Virus record (IMG/VR): IMGVR_UViG_3300046558_000399
Coordinates: 1 to 37,271 of that record
Source: a virus
Length of the DNA: 37,271 bases
Direction: 5' to 3' (one strand)
Shown one piece after another: positions 7,280 through 30,868 of the stretch. The position numbers were made by a program, and so were the translations under genes. Position 1 is the first letter of the stretch, and every line of letters starts with the position of its first letter. Below the pieces are notes generated by a model. The model was given only the letters and a program-made list of their open reading frames with translations, was not told the DNA's origin and ran no database searches.

Positions 7280-9951
7280 GTGACCGTCCAGCACCGATTT
7301 CCGCCTGGGCGCGGCGTTACACGGAAACCTTCAACCTTGCACTTGTACCGATTGACCCCGGTGAGAAGGCCCCGAAAGGAATGGGCTGGAACCAACCGGG
7401 TGGCTACTTTACCGACCCTGATAAGGCCGATATTTTTTGGCGGGCCAACCCAAACCATAACCTTGGCGTGGTGCTCGGGCCGAGCCGTGTTTGCTCCCTG
7501 GATGTCGATGACGTCCAGTGGACCCGGCACGTTCTGTACGAGTTGCTTGGTTTGGACGTCGATGCCATGGCGTTGGTGTTCCCGACTGTTGTGGGCAACC
7601 CCGCGCGGTTTCGTGTCCTGTTCCGCGTGCCGGACGGCGTCGACCTGACTCGCCATTCCCTTGCCTGGCCGAATGAAAACGATCCTGATGGTTCGATTCA
7701 TAAGGGGCTTACGGCCAAGGCGAGGGCTGCGAAGGATGCCGGTGATCACGCCGGTGAGCAGGCTTTCCGCGAAGAGGCAAAGCAGTTCCAGCGTCTCACG
7801 GTATTCGAGCTGCGTGCTGGTCCTGTGCAGGACGTTCTGCCCCCATCAATCCATCCCGGTACCGGCGAGCCTTACACTTGGCGGACGCCGCCCGATGCCG
7901 CCGGATTTCCGGTGCTGACCGAGGAGCTACTGTCCGTCTGGAACAACTGGGAATTCTTCAAGCGCGACGCCGAGGCCGCGTGCCCTTGGTTGCCGAAGGT
8001 CGCAGCTCCGGCGCCGAAGGCAAAGGCGAAGCTCGCCTCTGTGCCTGGCAATCGGCCTTCGGTCATTGACGAGTTCAACCGCTGCCATGACGTAACAGAG
8101 CTGCTGCGCTCCCACAGCTATATCAAGCGCGGGAGCAAGTGGCTGTACCCGCAAAGCAGCACCGGCTTGCCCGGCATCACTGTTTCGGACCACGGCAAAG
8201 TCTTTTCACACCACGGCGCTGACCCTCTCGCTAACGGTCACCAGAACGATGCATTCGACGTGTTTTGCCTGCTCGACCATGGCGGGGATCGCTCGCGCGC
8301 GGTGAAAGAAGCTGCCCGGATGCTCGGTATGCAATCGTCTCGTCCTGCCGCCAACGATCTTCCCCCGGCCCCATCGGTGGATTCGGCCGAGCCTTCGCCG
8401 CCCAGCGAGGCCGCTCCGGCTCCTGACGGGGGCGCGGGGGAGGACCTGACCATAGAGCAGGTTTTGCGCCGGTATGCCTTGGTCGAAGGTACGACGCAGG
8501 TCTGGGACTTCGACAAATCGAAGGCAATGAAGAAGGCTGCGTTCGAGGCGCGTGTCGGCAAGCCGCTGGCAAAGCTATGGATGGACAACACCAACAAGAA
8601 GCTGATTGCGGACGAGCATGCCAAGGAAGTCGAGCAGGCCCGCAAGATCGCGGGCAAGAAGGGCGGCGCATTCGGTCTAGAACCGGTCGACCGTTACGTC
8701 TATATCGATGGCACGAAGGATGTGTGGGATCGCGAGAAGAAGCGCAGGATTCCCGAAGGCGCTGTGAAAATGGCCCTGGGCGATACCTACGCGTTCTGGC
8801 TGAACAGCCCGGAGCGGCGGGTGGTGGACGTTGACCACATCGTCTTTGACCCGACCATGACCAAGGACCCGAACGTCTACATCAACACGTTCGACGGGCT
8901 GCCGCTGGAGCCGGTTGACGACGACGCCGCCTGCGCGAACCTCATCTGGCTCATTTCCTTTCTCTGCAACCATGACCCCGACGCCGCCCTTTGGCTGACT
9001 CGCTGGCTTGCATATCCCTTGCAACACCTGGGCGCCAAGATGGACACCGCAGTCCTGATGCATTCCACGATGGAAGGCTCGGGCAAGAGCCTGCTGTTCG
9101 CCGACACCTTCGGGGCGCTCTACGGCCAGTACGCCGCAACGGTTGGGCAGACCCAGCTCGAAAGCAACTTCAACGCCTGGCAGTCCCGGAAGATGTGGGC
9201 CGTGTTCGAAGAGGTGGTCAGCCGTGACCAGCGCTACAACCAGGTCGGCAAGATCAAGCACCTGGTCACCGGCAAGACGGTGCGGATGGAGTCGAAGTTC
9301 ATCAACGGCTGGGAAGAGGCCAACCACATGAACGCGGTCTTCCTGAGCAACGAGATTCTGCCGTGGCCCATCAGCGATAGCGACCGCCGCATGCTGGTCA
9401 TGTGGCCCATGGAGACCTTGTCCGTAGCCCGGCAGAAGGCCATCGGAAAGGAGTTGGTGAGCGGCGGTGTCGCGGCCCTATATGGCTGGCTGTTGCGGGT
9501 TGACCTAGGGGATTTCAACCAGCGTACACGGCCGCCAAATACAGATGCGCGGGATCGCCTGGTTGCCCTCAGTCGGGCCGGGTGGCAGACGTTTCTCCAT
9601 CTTTGGCGGTATGGCGAGCTTGGGCAAAACATGTGGGGTGTATGCCTTTCGACCGATCTGTACGCGCTGTTCATCGAATGGTGTCAGCGGAACAAAGAGC
9701 ACGCGATGAGCCAAACGAAGTTCTCACTGTTCATCAGTTCCGAGGTCGAGAAGAGCCGCTCAATACCCTGGACCGACGGCAACAACAGGCGATTTGGAGC
9801 GTTCTTTTTTCCCAACGATCCGATGGCTTCCCCCGCCCCATCATTGTCAGCGGCCGGACTGGGCGTCGTCGTGAAGGATTGGCGCGACGCGGCGAAGCTT
9901 GCTGGCTGGCATGTCGAGTCCTGGGACCACATCAAGGCGACCGCAGCATGA
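7276..9951 (+). CDS. Bifunctional primase-polymerase/helicase (replication initiation protein)
   Basis: An 891-residue replication protein. Residues about 10-200 look like a prim-pol (bifunctional DNA primase/polymerase) domain, with the conserved acidic cluster D76-V-D-D79 (SLDVDDVQW) and the later FRVLFRVP strand. Residues about 530-800 form a DUF5906/SF3-type helicase region: Walker-A-like MEGSGKS (Lys604), Walker B-like WAVFEEV (about 643-650), and the sensor region FLSNEILPWPISDSDRRM. An Ala/Pro-rich linker (about 355-395) separates the halves. It likely primes and unwinds at the phage origin, and the iteron array begins 14 bases after its stop codon. Its ATGA overlaps the zinc-finger gene. 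Confidence 0.9.
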   Translation: MSDRPAPISAWARRYTETFNLALVPIDPGEKAPKGMGWNQPGGYFTDPDKADIFWRANPNHNLGVVLGPSRVCSLDVDDVQWTRHVLYELLGLDVDAMALVFPTVVGNPARFRVLFRVPDGVDLTRHSLAWPNENDPDGSIHKGLTAKARAAKDAGDHAGEQAFREEAKQFQRLTVFELRAGPVQDVLPPSIHPGTGEPYTWRTPPDAAGFPVLTEELLSVWNNWEFFKRDAEAACPWLPKVAAPAPKAKAKLASVPGNRPSVIDEFNRCHDVTELLRSHSYIKRGSKWLYPQSSTGLPGITVSDHGKVFSHHGADPLANGHQNDAFDVFCLLDHGGDRSRAVKEAARMLGMQSSRPAANDLPPAPSVDSAEPSPPSEAAPAPDGGAGEDLTIEQVLRRYALVEGTTQVWDFDKSKAMKKAAFEARVGKPLAKLWMDNTNKKLIADEHAKEVEQARKIAGKKGGAFGLEPVDRYVYIDGTKDVWDREKKRRIPEGAVKMALGDTYAFWLNSPERRVVDVDHIVFDPTMTKDPNVYINTFDGLPLEPVDDDAACANLIWLISFLCNHDPDAALWLTRWLAYPLQHLGAKMDTAVLMHSTMEGSGKSLLFADTFGALYGQYAATVGQTQLESNFNAWQSRKMWAVFEEVVSRDQRYNQVGKIKHLVTGKTVRMESKFINGWEEANHMNAVFLSNEILPWPISDSDRRMLVMWPMETLSVARQKAIGKELVSGGVAALYGWLLRVDLGDFNQRTRPPNTDARDRLVALSRAGWQTFLHLWRYGELGQNMWGVCLSTDLYALFIEWCQRNKEHAMSQTKFSLFISSEVEKSRSIPWTDGNNRRFGAFFFPNDPMASPAPSLSAAGLGVVVKDWRDAAKLAGWHVESWDHIKATAA

Positions 9952-9964
9952 GAACAACCAAATG

Positions 9965-10256
9965 TGTGTTGGGTGTGTCGGGTGTGTGTTGGGTTGATTC
10001 TGGATACTCAACACAGGGCGAAGCCTTATTTTTCAAGGGGTGTAGGGCTGTGTGTTGGGTGTGCTGGGTTTTTCGTCGCGCGCGCGCATGCATGACGTTA
10101 GTTGCACAGACCAAAGCCATCAGATTTTTTTTCCATGCGAGGACAGATAAACCCAACAAACCCAACACACCTAACACAATGTCGTTTAGATACTTGAATT
10201 TAAAGGGTTTTATCTGTGTTGGGTTTGTGTTGGGTATGGGGTTTTTTGTGTTGGGT
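9965..10256. repeat. Iteron array of TGTGTTGGGT repeats, candidate replication origin
   Basis: Non-coding stretch between the primase-helicase gene and the next gene. Direct copies of TGTGTTGGGT lie at 9965-9974, 9985-9994, 10051-10060, 10215-10224, 10226-10235 and 10247-10256, with one-mismatch copies at 9974-9983 and 10060-10069. Inverted copies are at 10160-10169 (exact) and at 10006-10015, 10151-10160 and 10169-10178 (variants). Steps of 9-11 bases keep neighbours on the same DNA face. Between the clusters are A/T-rich runs (10122-10132 and 10182-10212) and a CG-alternating tract (about 10075-10090). This is the layout of an iteron-type origin; the function is inferred. Confidence 0.8.
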
Positions 10257-10279
10257 ATCGTTTGCGGGGGGATTTGGGG

Positions 10280-10747
10280 ATGATCAAGGAGATTGAGAGC
10301 CTGATGGTTCATTGGGGCGAGCAACTGGCCCGGCACGGCCTGGGAGCGGGAATCGGCAGCCAGATGGGCAGCATCATGGAATGGAAAGGCACCGCGCCTC
10401 GCGGCACACCCGGTTCACGAATCGTCAGCGGCGGCGCGGGTATGGACCAGGTCGCGAGTGAAATCGACGCCGTGATCGCGGGCCTTGAGCGTGGTGCCGC
10501 GCCGGAGCAGAAGCTGGCGAAGCTCGCGCGGCAACGGTACTGCCAGTGCGTGACGGTGCGGGAGCAGATGCAAACGGCTGGCATTGCCGAAGGCGCTGAC
10601 CGTACTTACCGAAACTGGGTGCGACGGTTGCATGAGCGTGTGCTGCTGGATCTGACCATGCGTACTCGAACCAGTCGGGGCTATGAGCGGCAGGGTGGTA
10701 ACGACCACCAGACGGCCCTCATTCGCACCAATGTTCTGGGCCGGTGA
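10280..10747 (+). CDS. Candidate late-gene transcription regulator (Q/ArpU-like), unproven
   Basis: A 155-residue protein, start at 10280 (GGGGATTTGGGG immediately upstream; a longer frame begins in the iterons). I do not recognise a named domain with certainty. The N-terminus has a conserved-looking W-G-E-Q-L-A-R-H-G and G-S-Q-M-G-S-I-M-E-W-K-G. The second half (KLAKLARQRYCQCVTVREQM, then EGADRTYRNWVRRLHERVL) resembles the sigma-region-4-like helix-turn-helix of ArpU/RinA/Q-type late regulators. It lies exactly where such a regulator is expected: last gene of the rightward early operon, just before the late control region with phased repeats and a terminator. Function is inferred from position and size. 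Confidence 0.55.
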   Translation: MIKEIESLMVHWGEQLARHGLGAGIGSQMGSIMEWKGTAPRGTPGSRIVSGGAGMDQVASEIDAVIAGLERGAAPEQKLAKLARQRYCQCVTVREQMQTAGIAEGADRTYRNWVRRLHERVLLDLTMRTRTSRGYERQGGNDHQTALIRTNVLGR

Positions 10748-28695: not shown

Positions 28696-30362
28696 TGGTC
28701 GTTCCTAATATTAATGCTCTTCCTGTGGCTCCCACGCGAGCCGATGCGCAGCCTGATTACTCGGCAAAGGCAGATACTTTCACTGCTGCACTTCCTCAGT
28801 TTAGCGTCCAAGTAAACACTGCAGTGCTTTGGATGGCTGACGCAATGGCTGCGGGCCTTGGATACAAGAACGCTGCAGTGGATAGCGCGGCGGCGTCTGC
28901 GACATCGGCGGCCGCATCGTCCGCACAAGTAGCCCTCGCCGCAGCCCAAGTGGCGCTTGCCACCGCGCAGGCGGGCAGTGCTTCCACCTCGGCGGCGAGC
29001 GCGCAGACCTATGCAGCAGCGGCCCAGGCGGCTATCGGTGCGCCGACCCTGGCAGGAAACAAGAATAAAGTTTTGACGGTGAAGGCCGACGAGTCCGGCG
29101 TGCTTTGGCGGGCTGTTGGGCAGCAGATTGGCGACCTGATGTTCAGCCTCAACCCACCAAGTGCAGAATACAAGTTGGCGGACGGGTCTACTTACCTGCA
29201 GGCCAGCTATCCTGAATATATTGCTAAAGTGGGATTGATTACTCCAAGCCCGCCGACTACGTTTGACGGCATACTTTCTTCTGTTGCTCCATCTTCCGGT
29301 AGCAACAAGACCGCGCTTGTCGTGGATTCTGCAGGTGTCTATTCTGTGCTCGTCTCCGCAGAAACTACCAATAACTATATTAGGATAGAACCGTACAAAA
29401 GAGTTGCGGGAGTAACTACTAAATTAACCCAGATAAACACGACAGACGCTTGTGGTGGCGTTTGCGCTGCTGCATTGAGCGCGGATGGGGTCTATTTGGT
29501 TTTAACAACCCCATCATCCTTTCTTTATGTCTACAAGAGAACAGGTGATACATTTGCCAAAATATTCACGGGGCCCACAGGTTCGGGGGGCTACGGCTGT
29601 GCAATATCCGATGACGGAGTATATATAGGTACTGCCTTAAGCTCTAACCCTTACTTCGCCGCTTATAAACGGTCCGGTGACACATTTACAAAGCTCGCCA
29701 CCCCAGTGGTAGGCGCAAACGCCATTAATAGCATGAACGTTTCTGCTGACGGGGTTTATTGGGCGGGGCATACCAATACCTCTAACCCTAATATAGTAGG
29801 ACTTAAGCGGGTCGGTGACACGTTCACTGTAGTGCCTCAAGTGGTTGTGATTTCCGCAAATTTCGCCTCACTTACTATGAGCAAGGATGGTAACTACTTG
29901 GTAGGTACCTACGCTAATAGCCCAAATCCGCTTATGTATAAGAGAAATGGTGACACTTTCACCTATCTAAAGCAGCTGCCTGCCACTTCTTCAGGTACCA
30001 ATATTTACACTACGCTCTTTAGCTTGGACTCTAAGTATTTGTTTTGTGCCGGGGCTGGCGCAGTGGAGGTGTTCAGAAACGTAAACGATACGTTTACCCA
30101 GATACCTTTATCGGGTGGCAATACCACCGGCAACACCTTGATTGCAGGGCATTTTGACGCGGGCTACTCAGCTTCATTTTTGATGGTTTATGAGAATGGC
30201 GCCCTTGCCCAGTTCAAAGATACCTACCCTTTCAACCCGCTGACCGAGTTTCAGGTTCCGAACGCAGTCGCCTCTAACGGTACTCCCAGCGCCATTAACA
30301 CCAGCACTAACACTCTGTACCCGGCCGTTAAAGCCTACGTCAAGATGAAGGAGCCAGCATGA
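28695..30362 (+). CDS. Tail fibre / receptor-binding protein with beta-propeller domain
   Basis: A 555-residue fibre. Residues 1-60 attach to the tail, 61-115 are an Ala/Ser-rich helical rod (typical of fibre shafts), and about 125-185 form a conserved lead-in (VLTVKADESGVLWRAVGQQI; LADGSTYLQASYPEY). About 205-500 is a propeller: blades of roughly 45-50 residues with S-x-D-G-V-Y at the start and G-D-T-F-x-K-L at the end, six clear copies and a possible seventh. The last about 40 residues (LTEFQVPNAVASNG; LYPAVKAYVKMKEPA) look like a fibre end shared among such genes. The propeller DNA is visibly more AT-rich than its neighbours, suggesting recent exchange of host-range determinant. The assembly-factor gene overlaps it. 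Confidence 0.85.
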   Translation: MVVPNINALPVAPTRADAQPDYSAKADTFTAALPQFSVQVNTAVLWMADAMAAGLGYKNAAVDSAAASATSAAASSAQVALAAAQVALATAQAGSASTSAASAQTYAAAAQAAIGAPTLAGNKNKVLTVKADESGVLWRAVGQQIGDLMFSLNPPSAEYKLADGSTYLQASYPEYIAKVGLITPSPPTTFDGILSSVAPSSGSNKTALVVDSAGVYSVLVSAETTNNYIRIEPYKRVAGVTTKLTQINTTDACGGVCAAALSADGVYLVLTTPSSFLYVYKRTGDTFAKIFTGPTGSGGYGCAISDDGVYIGTALSSNPYFAAYKRSGDTFTKLATPVVGANAINSMNVSADGVYWAGHTNTSNPNIVGLKRVGDTFTVVPQVVVISANFASLTMSKDGNYLVGTYANSPNPLMYKRNGDTFTYLKQLPATSSGTNIYTTLFSLDSKYLFCAGAGAVEVFRNVNDTFTQIPLSGGNTTGNTLIAGHFDAGYSASFLMVYENGALAQFKDTYPFNPLTEFQVPNAVASNGTPSAINTSTNTLYPAVKAYVKMKEPA

Positions 30363-30868
30363 TCACTGTCTACCAATACGATTCACTTGGCGTGTACTCG
30401 GCCAAGGTTGATATCGATCCCGAGGACGCCCTCCCGCCGAATAGCACCTCTCTGGCCCCGCCCAAAACCACTGGTGACAAGGTGGTTCAGTGGGCGGGCG
30501 GCGTGTGGGTGGTCTTGGATGGGCCGCCGTCGCCTGCTGCCCCGGATTGGCCCGCCCTCATTGCTACCCGACGCTACGCGGCTGAAATGGCAGGGACCAA
30601 GGTCCAGGGCTTGGCCATCGCCACAGACGACCGCAGCCAGGGCCTGATCACCGGAGCTGCCCTTGCCGCGATGCTCGATGCTGATTACACGATCAAGTGG
30701 AAGACCGCAGAGGGCTTTGTCGAACTGACCGGTGCGCAGATTATCGGCGTGGCGTCGGCAGTGCGCGCGTACGTGCAGGCCTGCTTTGACCGGGAGGCCG
30801 ATCTGCTCACCGCCGTTGCCGACGGCTCGATGACTGCAGCGATGCTTGAAGAGGGGTGGCCTACATGA
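30359..30868 (+). CDS. Tail fibre assembly / DUF4376 protein
   Basis: A 169-residue protein. The C-terminal 100 residues fit DUF4376: R-R-Y-A-A-E near 73, A-T-D-D-R-S-Q-G-L-I-T-G-A-A-L-A-A-M, then Y-T-I-K-W-K-T-A-E-G-F-V-E-L and the closing V-R-A-Y-V-Q-A-C-F-D-R-E-A-D-L. Such proteins are found immediately after tail fibre genes and are thought to help fold or attach the fibre. The N-terminal 70 residues vary, probably to match the particular fibre. It overlaps the fibre gene by ATGA and the next gene likewise. Confidence 0.85.
   Translation: MITVYQYDSLGVYSAKVDIDPEDALPPNSTSLAPPKTTGDKVVQWAGGVWVVLDGPPSPAAPDWPALIATRRYAAEMAGTKVQGLAIATDDRSQGLITGAALAAMLDADYTIKWKTAEGFVELTGAQIIGVASAVRAYVQACFDREADLLTAVADGSMTAAMLEEGWPT

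Follow-up and report, generated by a model that had tools for sequence, protein, structure and literature searches.

The non-coding interval from 9965 to 10256 in the 37,271-nucleotide viral sequence analyzed here (IMG/VR record IMGVR_UViG_3300046558_000399, referred to at its full length as the window) carries an ordered array of 10-bp repeats and is, judging from comparisons between related sequences, very probably the replication origin of this Pseudomonas phage, with the primase-helicase gene immediately upstream encoding its initiator. Because the layout of the array is kept in relatives and the repeated word changes together with the upstream protein's helicase half, the element is a likely replication start site. 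The primase-helicase, in turn, is the likely initiator because the word follows its C-terminal half, which has a predicted winged helix at its end; this supports the upstream primase-helicase over the alternative of another initiator, both of which an earlier note on this DNA had suggested might bind here.

Defining a site as a match with at most one mismatch to the 10-letter word TGTGTTGGGT on either strand, we find 12 sites within the element (8 forward and 4 reverse, 7 exact and 5 with one mismatch), out of 13 in the entire window. By comparison, 100 dinucleotide-shuffled genomes contain a mean of 1.87 sites, and at most 2 per 292 bases. On a de novo word score, the element reaches 7.4, compared with a maximum of 4.0 both in 500 shuffles and across 247 other windows of the genome. 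The earlier observation of twelve copies or near-copies in both orientations, within some 290 non-coding bases, is thus borne out, as are the A/T-rich runs between clusters (10124–10133 and 10186–10214). The array starts 14 bp past the primase-helicase stop codon, in a gap bounded by that stop (9951) and the ATG of the next gene at 10280 (with an in-frame TTG at 10262). Its start-to-start steps are, in order, 9, 11, 21, 45, 9, 91, 9, 9, 46, 11 and 21 bp. The previously described stepping of neighbors by 9–11 bases therefore holds for close neighbors (9 bp four times and 11 bp twice), but the proposal that all sites lie on one helical face is only approximate, since the remaining steps are 21, 45, 91, 46 and 21 bp; the spacings are nonetheless kept almost to the base.

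This conservation was established from about 370 related loci, collected from phage, virus and genome collections, of which the 159 with Pseudomonas-type proteins were used for the analysis of spacing and of individual slots (152 for sites 1–3). The steps of 9 or 11 bp between close neighbors are kept in all or nearly all of these loci (Table 1), including a step of 9 bp between sites 8 and 9 in 159/159. The wider steps are also constrained: sites 3 and 4 are 21 bp apart in 137 loci, sites 4 and 5 are 45 or 46 bp apart, sites 9 and 10 are 46 bp apart in 155/159, and sites 11 and 12 are 19–21 bp apart. Only the spacer between the two core groups (sites 5–6 and 7–9) differs much in length, with a step of 88–101 bp between sites 6 and 7. 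Sites 6, 8 and 10 are almost invariant, and sites 4, 7 and 9 are furthest from the consensus, with site 7 favoring TTTGTTGGGT (T at position 2 in 77%).

The array is not confined to the word found in the window. We compiled 107 nonredundant representatives (C-terminal halves <90% identical, a few of them fragments), and applied a de novo 9-mer search to the region 3′ of the gene, accepting a word if its score exceeded the highest from four shuffles by at least 1 unit. This automatic test was passed by 105/107 representatives, a Moraxella case only barely, and in the two that failed (L342 and L354) an array read by eye is present past one inserted small gene. The comparison with related phages that the earlier note had called for thus gives 107/107 representatives with an array of their own word. 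Words in these relatives include TGGTTAGGGT, TGTCTAGGGT, TCAGACAGA, ATTCCGACA, ATGTGCGGG, GGGAAGGGT, TTCGGAGA and TGTGCAGGG, and loose clustering yields 20 word groups, the biggest combining several different words that end in GGGT. The step between adjacent sites is 9 bp in most word groups, with the Halomonas-type groups having 8 bp. In several lineages (L344, L353, L333 and L323) the two halves of the array mirror each other as a dyad, with six pairs of sites placed symmetrically and oriented oppositely; compared with this scheme, the right outer group of the window array is inverted. More distant primases, those of YuA and AXL_3 (25–31% identical), end just 44–93 bp before the next gene, which leaves no room for such an array.

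We note two further variations among the representatives. The small gene between helicase and array in L342 (4823–5284) and L354 (4829–5281) encodes a free-standing relative of the winged-helix tail of the helicase (for L342, hhalign probability 95%, E 1.8e-8), which is perhaps a second origin-binding or regulatory protein. In the Stenotrophomonas-type locus L284, the sites have shifted from ATGTGCGGG to GTGCAAGGC, and the bit-score ratio of the tail to its relatives is still ~0.7–0.8; on sequence grounds this is a recent concerted word change, useful for locating specificity residues.

Natural exchanges between the two halves of the protein allow the word to be assigned to one of them. The proteins of SC_9 and KT1 have N-terminal halves that are 89% identical and C-terminal halves that are 54% identical, and their words differ at 3/10 positions; similarly, those of L122 and L186 share 73% identity in the N-terminal half and 38% in the C-terminal half, and have unrelated words. 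Conversely, the window and phage PG1 have unrelated N-terminal halves (an archaeo-eukaryotic primase, AEP, in the former and PriCT_2+TOPRIM in the latter), C-terminal halves that are 80% identical, and the same word. Such comparisons show, at the level of sequence, that the word tracks the helicase or C-terminal half rather than the primase. Replacement of the AEP by an unrelated N-terminal half, with the same helicase and the same word, is seen in L008 (phage PG1, the locus for which we show the PriCT_2+TOPRIM half), L009, L164–L167 and L193. No pair of representatives combines a dissimilar tail with the same word.

The primase-helicase of the window matches PF09250 (E 1.4e-19) and PF19263 (E 2.6e-18) in Pfam, and belongs to phrog_1156, "DNA primase" (E 7.5e-132). 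An AlphaFold2 (AF2) model of its C-terminal half, with a predicted local distance difference test (pLDDT) score of 89.4, has as its best Foldseek match the C-terminal region of NrS-1 (6k9c, E 8.2e-19), and also matches the SaPI5 primase-helicase (7ola, E 8.8e-9), poxvirus D5/E5 and the African swine fever virus PrimPol. In this model, the C-terminal half is a superfamily 3 (SF3)/AAA+ helicase fold, putatively self-loading. At the position of the winged helix, the KT1 protein gives a borderline Pox_D5 match (E 6e-4, just below the cutoff), and the best of the weak Foldseek matches to the tail alone include Orc1/Cdc6 on origin DNA and RFX winged helices. We infer that the predicted winged helix reads the 10-bp sites as double-stranded DNA.

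Several observations weigh against this assignment, or against the origin itself. A Foldseek search with the tail alone returned nothing significant (best E 0.14). Within the C-terminal half, the winged helix is not strongly singled out, with a partial coefficient of 0.093 compared to ~0.06 for its neighbors, and of the top 25 columns 7 fall on it compared to 5.5 expected, with no clear peak. As the array adjoins the 3′ end of the gene, co-inheritance through linkage must contribute to the association between word and C-terminal half. Taking linkage into account together with the column analysis, which does not pin the word on the winged helix, the specificity maps only to the C-terminal half. 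In addition, the GC skew of the window is uninformative, with no switch at the array, and in vitro work on the homologous protein of archaeal pRN1 did not detect specific binding to its origin (PMC4234260).

The spacer between the core groups has features of a putative melting region. Its alternating purine-pyrimidine tract has counterparts in relatives, where the longest such run averages 17.4 nt (105 relatives) compared to 7.0 in control windows. A T- or A-run followed by YGCG within 60 nt before the reverse core occurs in 46/94 relatives compared to 72/11,857 control windows. The A/T content, for which the locus mean is 0.40, peaks at 0.67 before the reverse core, adjoining the G/C-rich alternating tract, and again between sites 9 and 10. 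In this latter gap, an integration host factor (IHF) consensus with ≤1 mismatch is found in 40/105 relatives, compared to 9.0 expected; since the motif is weak in the window, we leave a role for IHF as an idea. A second long alternating purine-pyrimidine run, of 17 nt, lies at 30761–30777 of the window, within an open reading frame (30359–30868), with no repeats noticed nearby.

Taken together, these features would fit a mechanism in which the winged helix binds the sites as duplex, and the opposed core groups (sites 5–6 and 7–9, with their 9-bp spacing) would each nucleate a hexameric SF3/AAA+ helicase ring. The two rings would then face each other across the ~90-bp spacer, with the strands opening at the alternating tract and T-run. 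The outer sites (1–4 and 10–12) may stabilize or regulate loading, and priming of both forks would fall to the fused primase, an AEP in the window and a TOPRIM in some relatives.

Other readings of the repeats need to be weighed against an origin bound as double-stranded DNA. That the element is a large DNA hairpin, as in the stem-loop origins proposed for pRN1 and Bordetella BIP-1 (PMC4234260), with the repeats serving only as stem arms, is quite improbable. The arms at 10050–10074 and 10146–10170 could indeed pair (88% complementary, with a 71-nt loop), and a pRN1 construct with a changed stem replicated only once a second change restored the symmetry of the stem (PMC4234260). In the 159 relatives, however, site 7 is mostly TTTGTTGGGT facing TGTGTTGGGT at site 6, a mismatch that is kept, and the frequent variants of site 5 have no matching change in site 8, which favors double-stranded binding sites over a stem-loop with compensating arms; moreover, the spacing-conserved sites 1–3 and 10–12 would fall outside the stem. 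It is very improbable that the repeats are instead start signals for the primase domain, comparable to those at which the NrS-1 PrimPol starts (TTTGGTTA or GTG): the word does contain GTG, and the related NrS-1 polymerase uses GTG and TTTGGTTA templates (PMC8718748), but phages with PriCT_2+TOPRIM and no AEP keep the same word and layout, the shared primase half of SC_9 and KT1 goes with different words, and many relatives have words lacking GTG.

A role as an operator or in late regulation, acting on the gene or operon downstream, would account for the position of the array directly upstream of that gene, a relative of whose product, in Halomonas phage H4907, is annotated as an antitermination protein. 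This is highly unlikely, as the word tracks the upstream protein and a scan of 9900–10400 gave no sigma-70-like promoter (and a single terminator-like site, roughly as many as in shuffled sequence). In addition, the downstream family, phrog_4300, is found alongside four of the word groups, and a single word group can be followed by several unrelated downstream families. Since downstream families and words mix so freely, we judge the phrog_4300 gene to lie outside the origin system. The terminase genes ~2 kb downstream would allow for a packaging (pac/cos) recognition site, which we regard as extremely unlikely given that the word tracks the helicase half and that similar inverted arrays lie 3′ of DUF5906 genes on plasmids, including an 8.7-kb Klebsiella plasmid with no terminase annotated in the stretch examined. 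As for an iteron plasmid origin with a RepA/TrfA-type initiator and DnaA boxes, the sole recognized candidate initiator here is the helicase, and DnaA boxes are not clearly enriched (2/105 core spacers compared to 0.7 expected).

Among known systems, our best reading, based on shared organization, is that the element and its gene would form a self-contained rep-ori unit of the kind found in Staphylococcus aureus pathogenicity islands (SaPI) and phage-inducible chromosomal islands (PICI), although carried by complete tailed phages, and would work in the manner of the SaPI/PICI and P4 replicons. In SaPI/PICI, the origin immediately follows the 3′ end of rep and has an A/T-rich region flanked by two sets of iterons, and a PICI rep-ori, once cloned, is able to drive a plasmid (PMC6092414). 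The likeness extends to an initiator helicase with or without a fused primase (the C-terminal half matches the SaPI5 Rep, 7ola, in structure), to the position of the array directly 3′ of rep, here and in 105/107 relatives (a likeness of position only), to two iteron sets (here the opposed core groups) around a putative melting region with its A/T peak, and to specificity that appears, from the natural swaps, to reside in the C-terminal part of Rep. SaPI/PICI origins differ from the phage array, whose 12 slots are fixed and include outer groups and one opposed site, whose spacer holds an alternating purine-pyrimidine tract, and whose helicase belongs to another subfamily (DUF5906). The window is not itself a PICI, a satellite island without virion genes of its own, because it has small and large terminase genes and a phage-sized genome.

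The pRN1 protein ORF904 likewise combines an AEP primase, an SF3 helicase and a winged helix, with an essential element directly 3′ of its gene (PMC4234260). We read the 21-nt stem arms of pRN1 as TGTCCA-tag-TGTCCA pairs with a 9-bp step, inverted across the 58-nt loop, as in the phage core, although pRN1 has 2+2 sites only and its genetic data were interpreted as a required hairpin (PMC4234260). Such direct pairs with a 9-bp step, TTTGCCTCG twice in Bordetella BPP-1 (L376, 1600–1720) and TGTCCA twice in pRN1 (L377, 5081–5183), are inverted across a 38–58-nt spacer in the proposed stem-loop origin region, and BPP-1 and Rhizobium pTH2c share the 2+2 arrangement of pRN1, with 9-bp steps. It is possible, if rather doubtful, that the phage arrays belong with the pRN1 origin to a single origin type, in which opposed groups of 9-bp-spaced initiator sites flank a 45–90-bp melting spacer, 3′ of the gene for an AEP/SF3/winged-helix protein; what was taken for a stem-loop in pRN1 would then be a set of double-stranded binding sites and not a hairpin, and some phage arrays would be dyads made of two half-origins in mirror image, with one hexamer loaded by each, around a central Z-DNA-prone tract. 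Counting against this are the symmetry-restoring pRN1 mutant, the lack of specific binding in vitro, and the 9-bp repeats themselves, which are visible in pRN1, pHEN7 and, imperfectly, pRN2, but not in pDL10 or pSSVx. Inverted repeat groups with a step of 9 or 8 bp also lie directly 3′ of the DUF5906 gene in pTH2c (L381, 3724–3812) and ~550 bp downstream of it in Klebsiella pC277_3 (L380, 5680–5995), and are likely plasmid origins.

Phage P4 is set apart by its TOPRIM primase, other helicase subfamily and other repeat layout. Its alpha protein is also a primase-helicase whose C-terminal winged helix binds origin repeats (PMC4234260). The NrS-1 primase-polymerase shares the PrimPol and helicase architecture; for this phage, two 8-nt priming sites mid-genome were suggested as the origin (PMC7102993), and no such array is described. 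The C-terminal domain of the helicase Cch2 from the staphylococcal cassette chromosome SCCmec binds direct repeats downstream of its own operon, which are just three 5-nt AAGTG iterons, and its primase is separate (PMC7581432).

The array and its gene would thus provide a defined candidate origin and initiator for a large temperate phage family (Pseudomonas, Stenotrophomonas, Halomonas and others), for which we found no published one, and a rep-ori layout described as exclusive to islands that parasitize phages would also be present in complete phages. Matches listed for the word TGTGTTGGGT in the literature were unrelated papers, and the literature search, with most subscription journals outside its coverage, found no published description of this array. 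With ~20 word groups that share a fixed frame and would be read by a homologous domain, the family would form a data set for word choice by winged helices, and the question of a hairpin or binding sites in pRN1 becomes directly testable.

Table 1. Coordinates of the array, its spacer features and the flanking genes in the window.
Feature	Position	Strand	Basis or remark
Primase-helicase, 891 amino acids (aa); AEP Prim-Pol N-terminal half, DUF5906 SF3/AAA+ helicase, C-terminal winged helix	7276–9951	+	Presumed initiator
C-terminal half (aa 410–891), part tracking the word	8503–9951	+	AF2 model, Foldseek, domain swaps
Predicted winged-helix DNA-binding domain (~aa 755–849)	9538–9822	+	Helix-helix-strand-strand in both models
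Site 1, TGTGTTGGGT	9965–9974	+	≤1-mismatch scan; slot kept in relatives
Site 2, TGTGTCGGGT	9974–9983	+	Scan; 9 bp past site 1 in 152/152 relatives
Site 3, TGTGTTGGGT	9985–9994	+	Scan; 11 bp past site 2 in 147/152 relatives
Site 4, TGTGTTGAGT	10006–10015	-	Scan and relatives
Site 5 (left core), TGTGTTGGGT	10051–10060	+	Scan and relatives
Site 6 (left core), TGTGCTGGGT	10060–10069	+	Scan; 9 bp past site 5 in 159/159
Alternating purine-pyrimidine tract CGCGCGCGCGCATGCATG, core spacer, 18 nt	10077–10094		Longest such run in the window
T-run then CATGCGAG, just before reverse core	10125–10141		Possible melting element
Site 7 (right core), TTTGTTGGGT	10151–10160	-	Scan and relatives
Site 8 (right core), TGTGTTGGGT	10160–10169	-	Scan; 9 bp past site 7 in 159/159
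Site 9 (right core), TGTGTTAGGT	10169–10178	-	Scan and relatives
A/T-rich gap, sites 9–10	10186–10214		IHF-like motif in some relatives
Site 10, TGTGTTGGGT	10215–10224	+	Scan and relatives
Site 11, TGTGTTGGGT	10226–10235	+	Scan; 11 bp past site 10 in 159/159
Site 12, TGTGTTGGGT	10247–10256	+	Scan and relatives
Downstream gene, phrog_4300 (E 9.6e-50)	10280–10747	+	Function unknown

An Rfam search of 9800–10500 gave nothing credible, with a single microRNA model at E 0.73. In the surrounding genome, the array is followed by the phrog_4300 gene and then by the small and large terminase genes, and upstream of the primase-helicase lie genes for a CI-like repressor with an S24 peptidase domain and a CII-like regulator.
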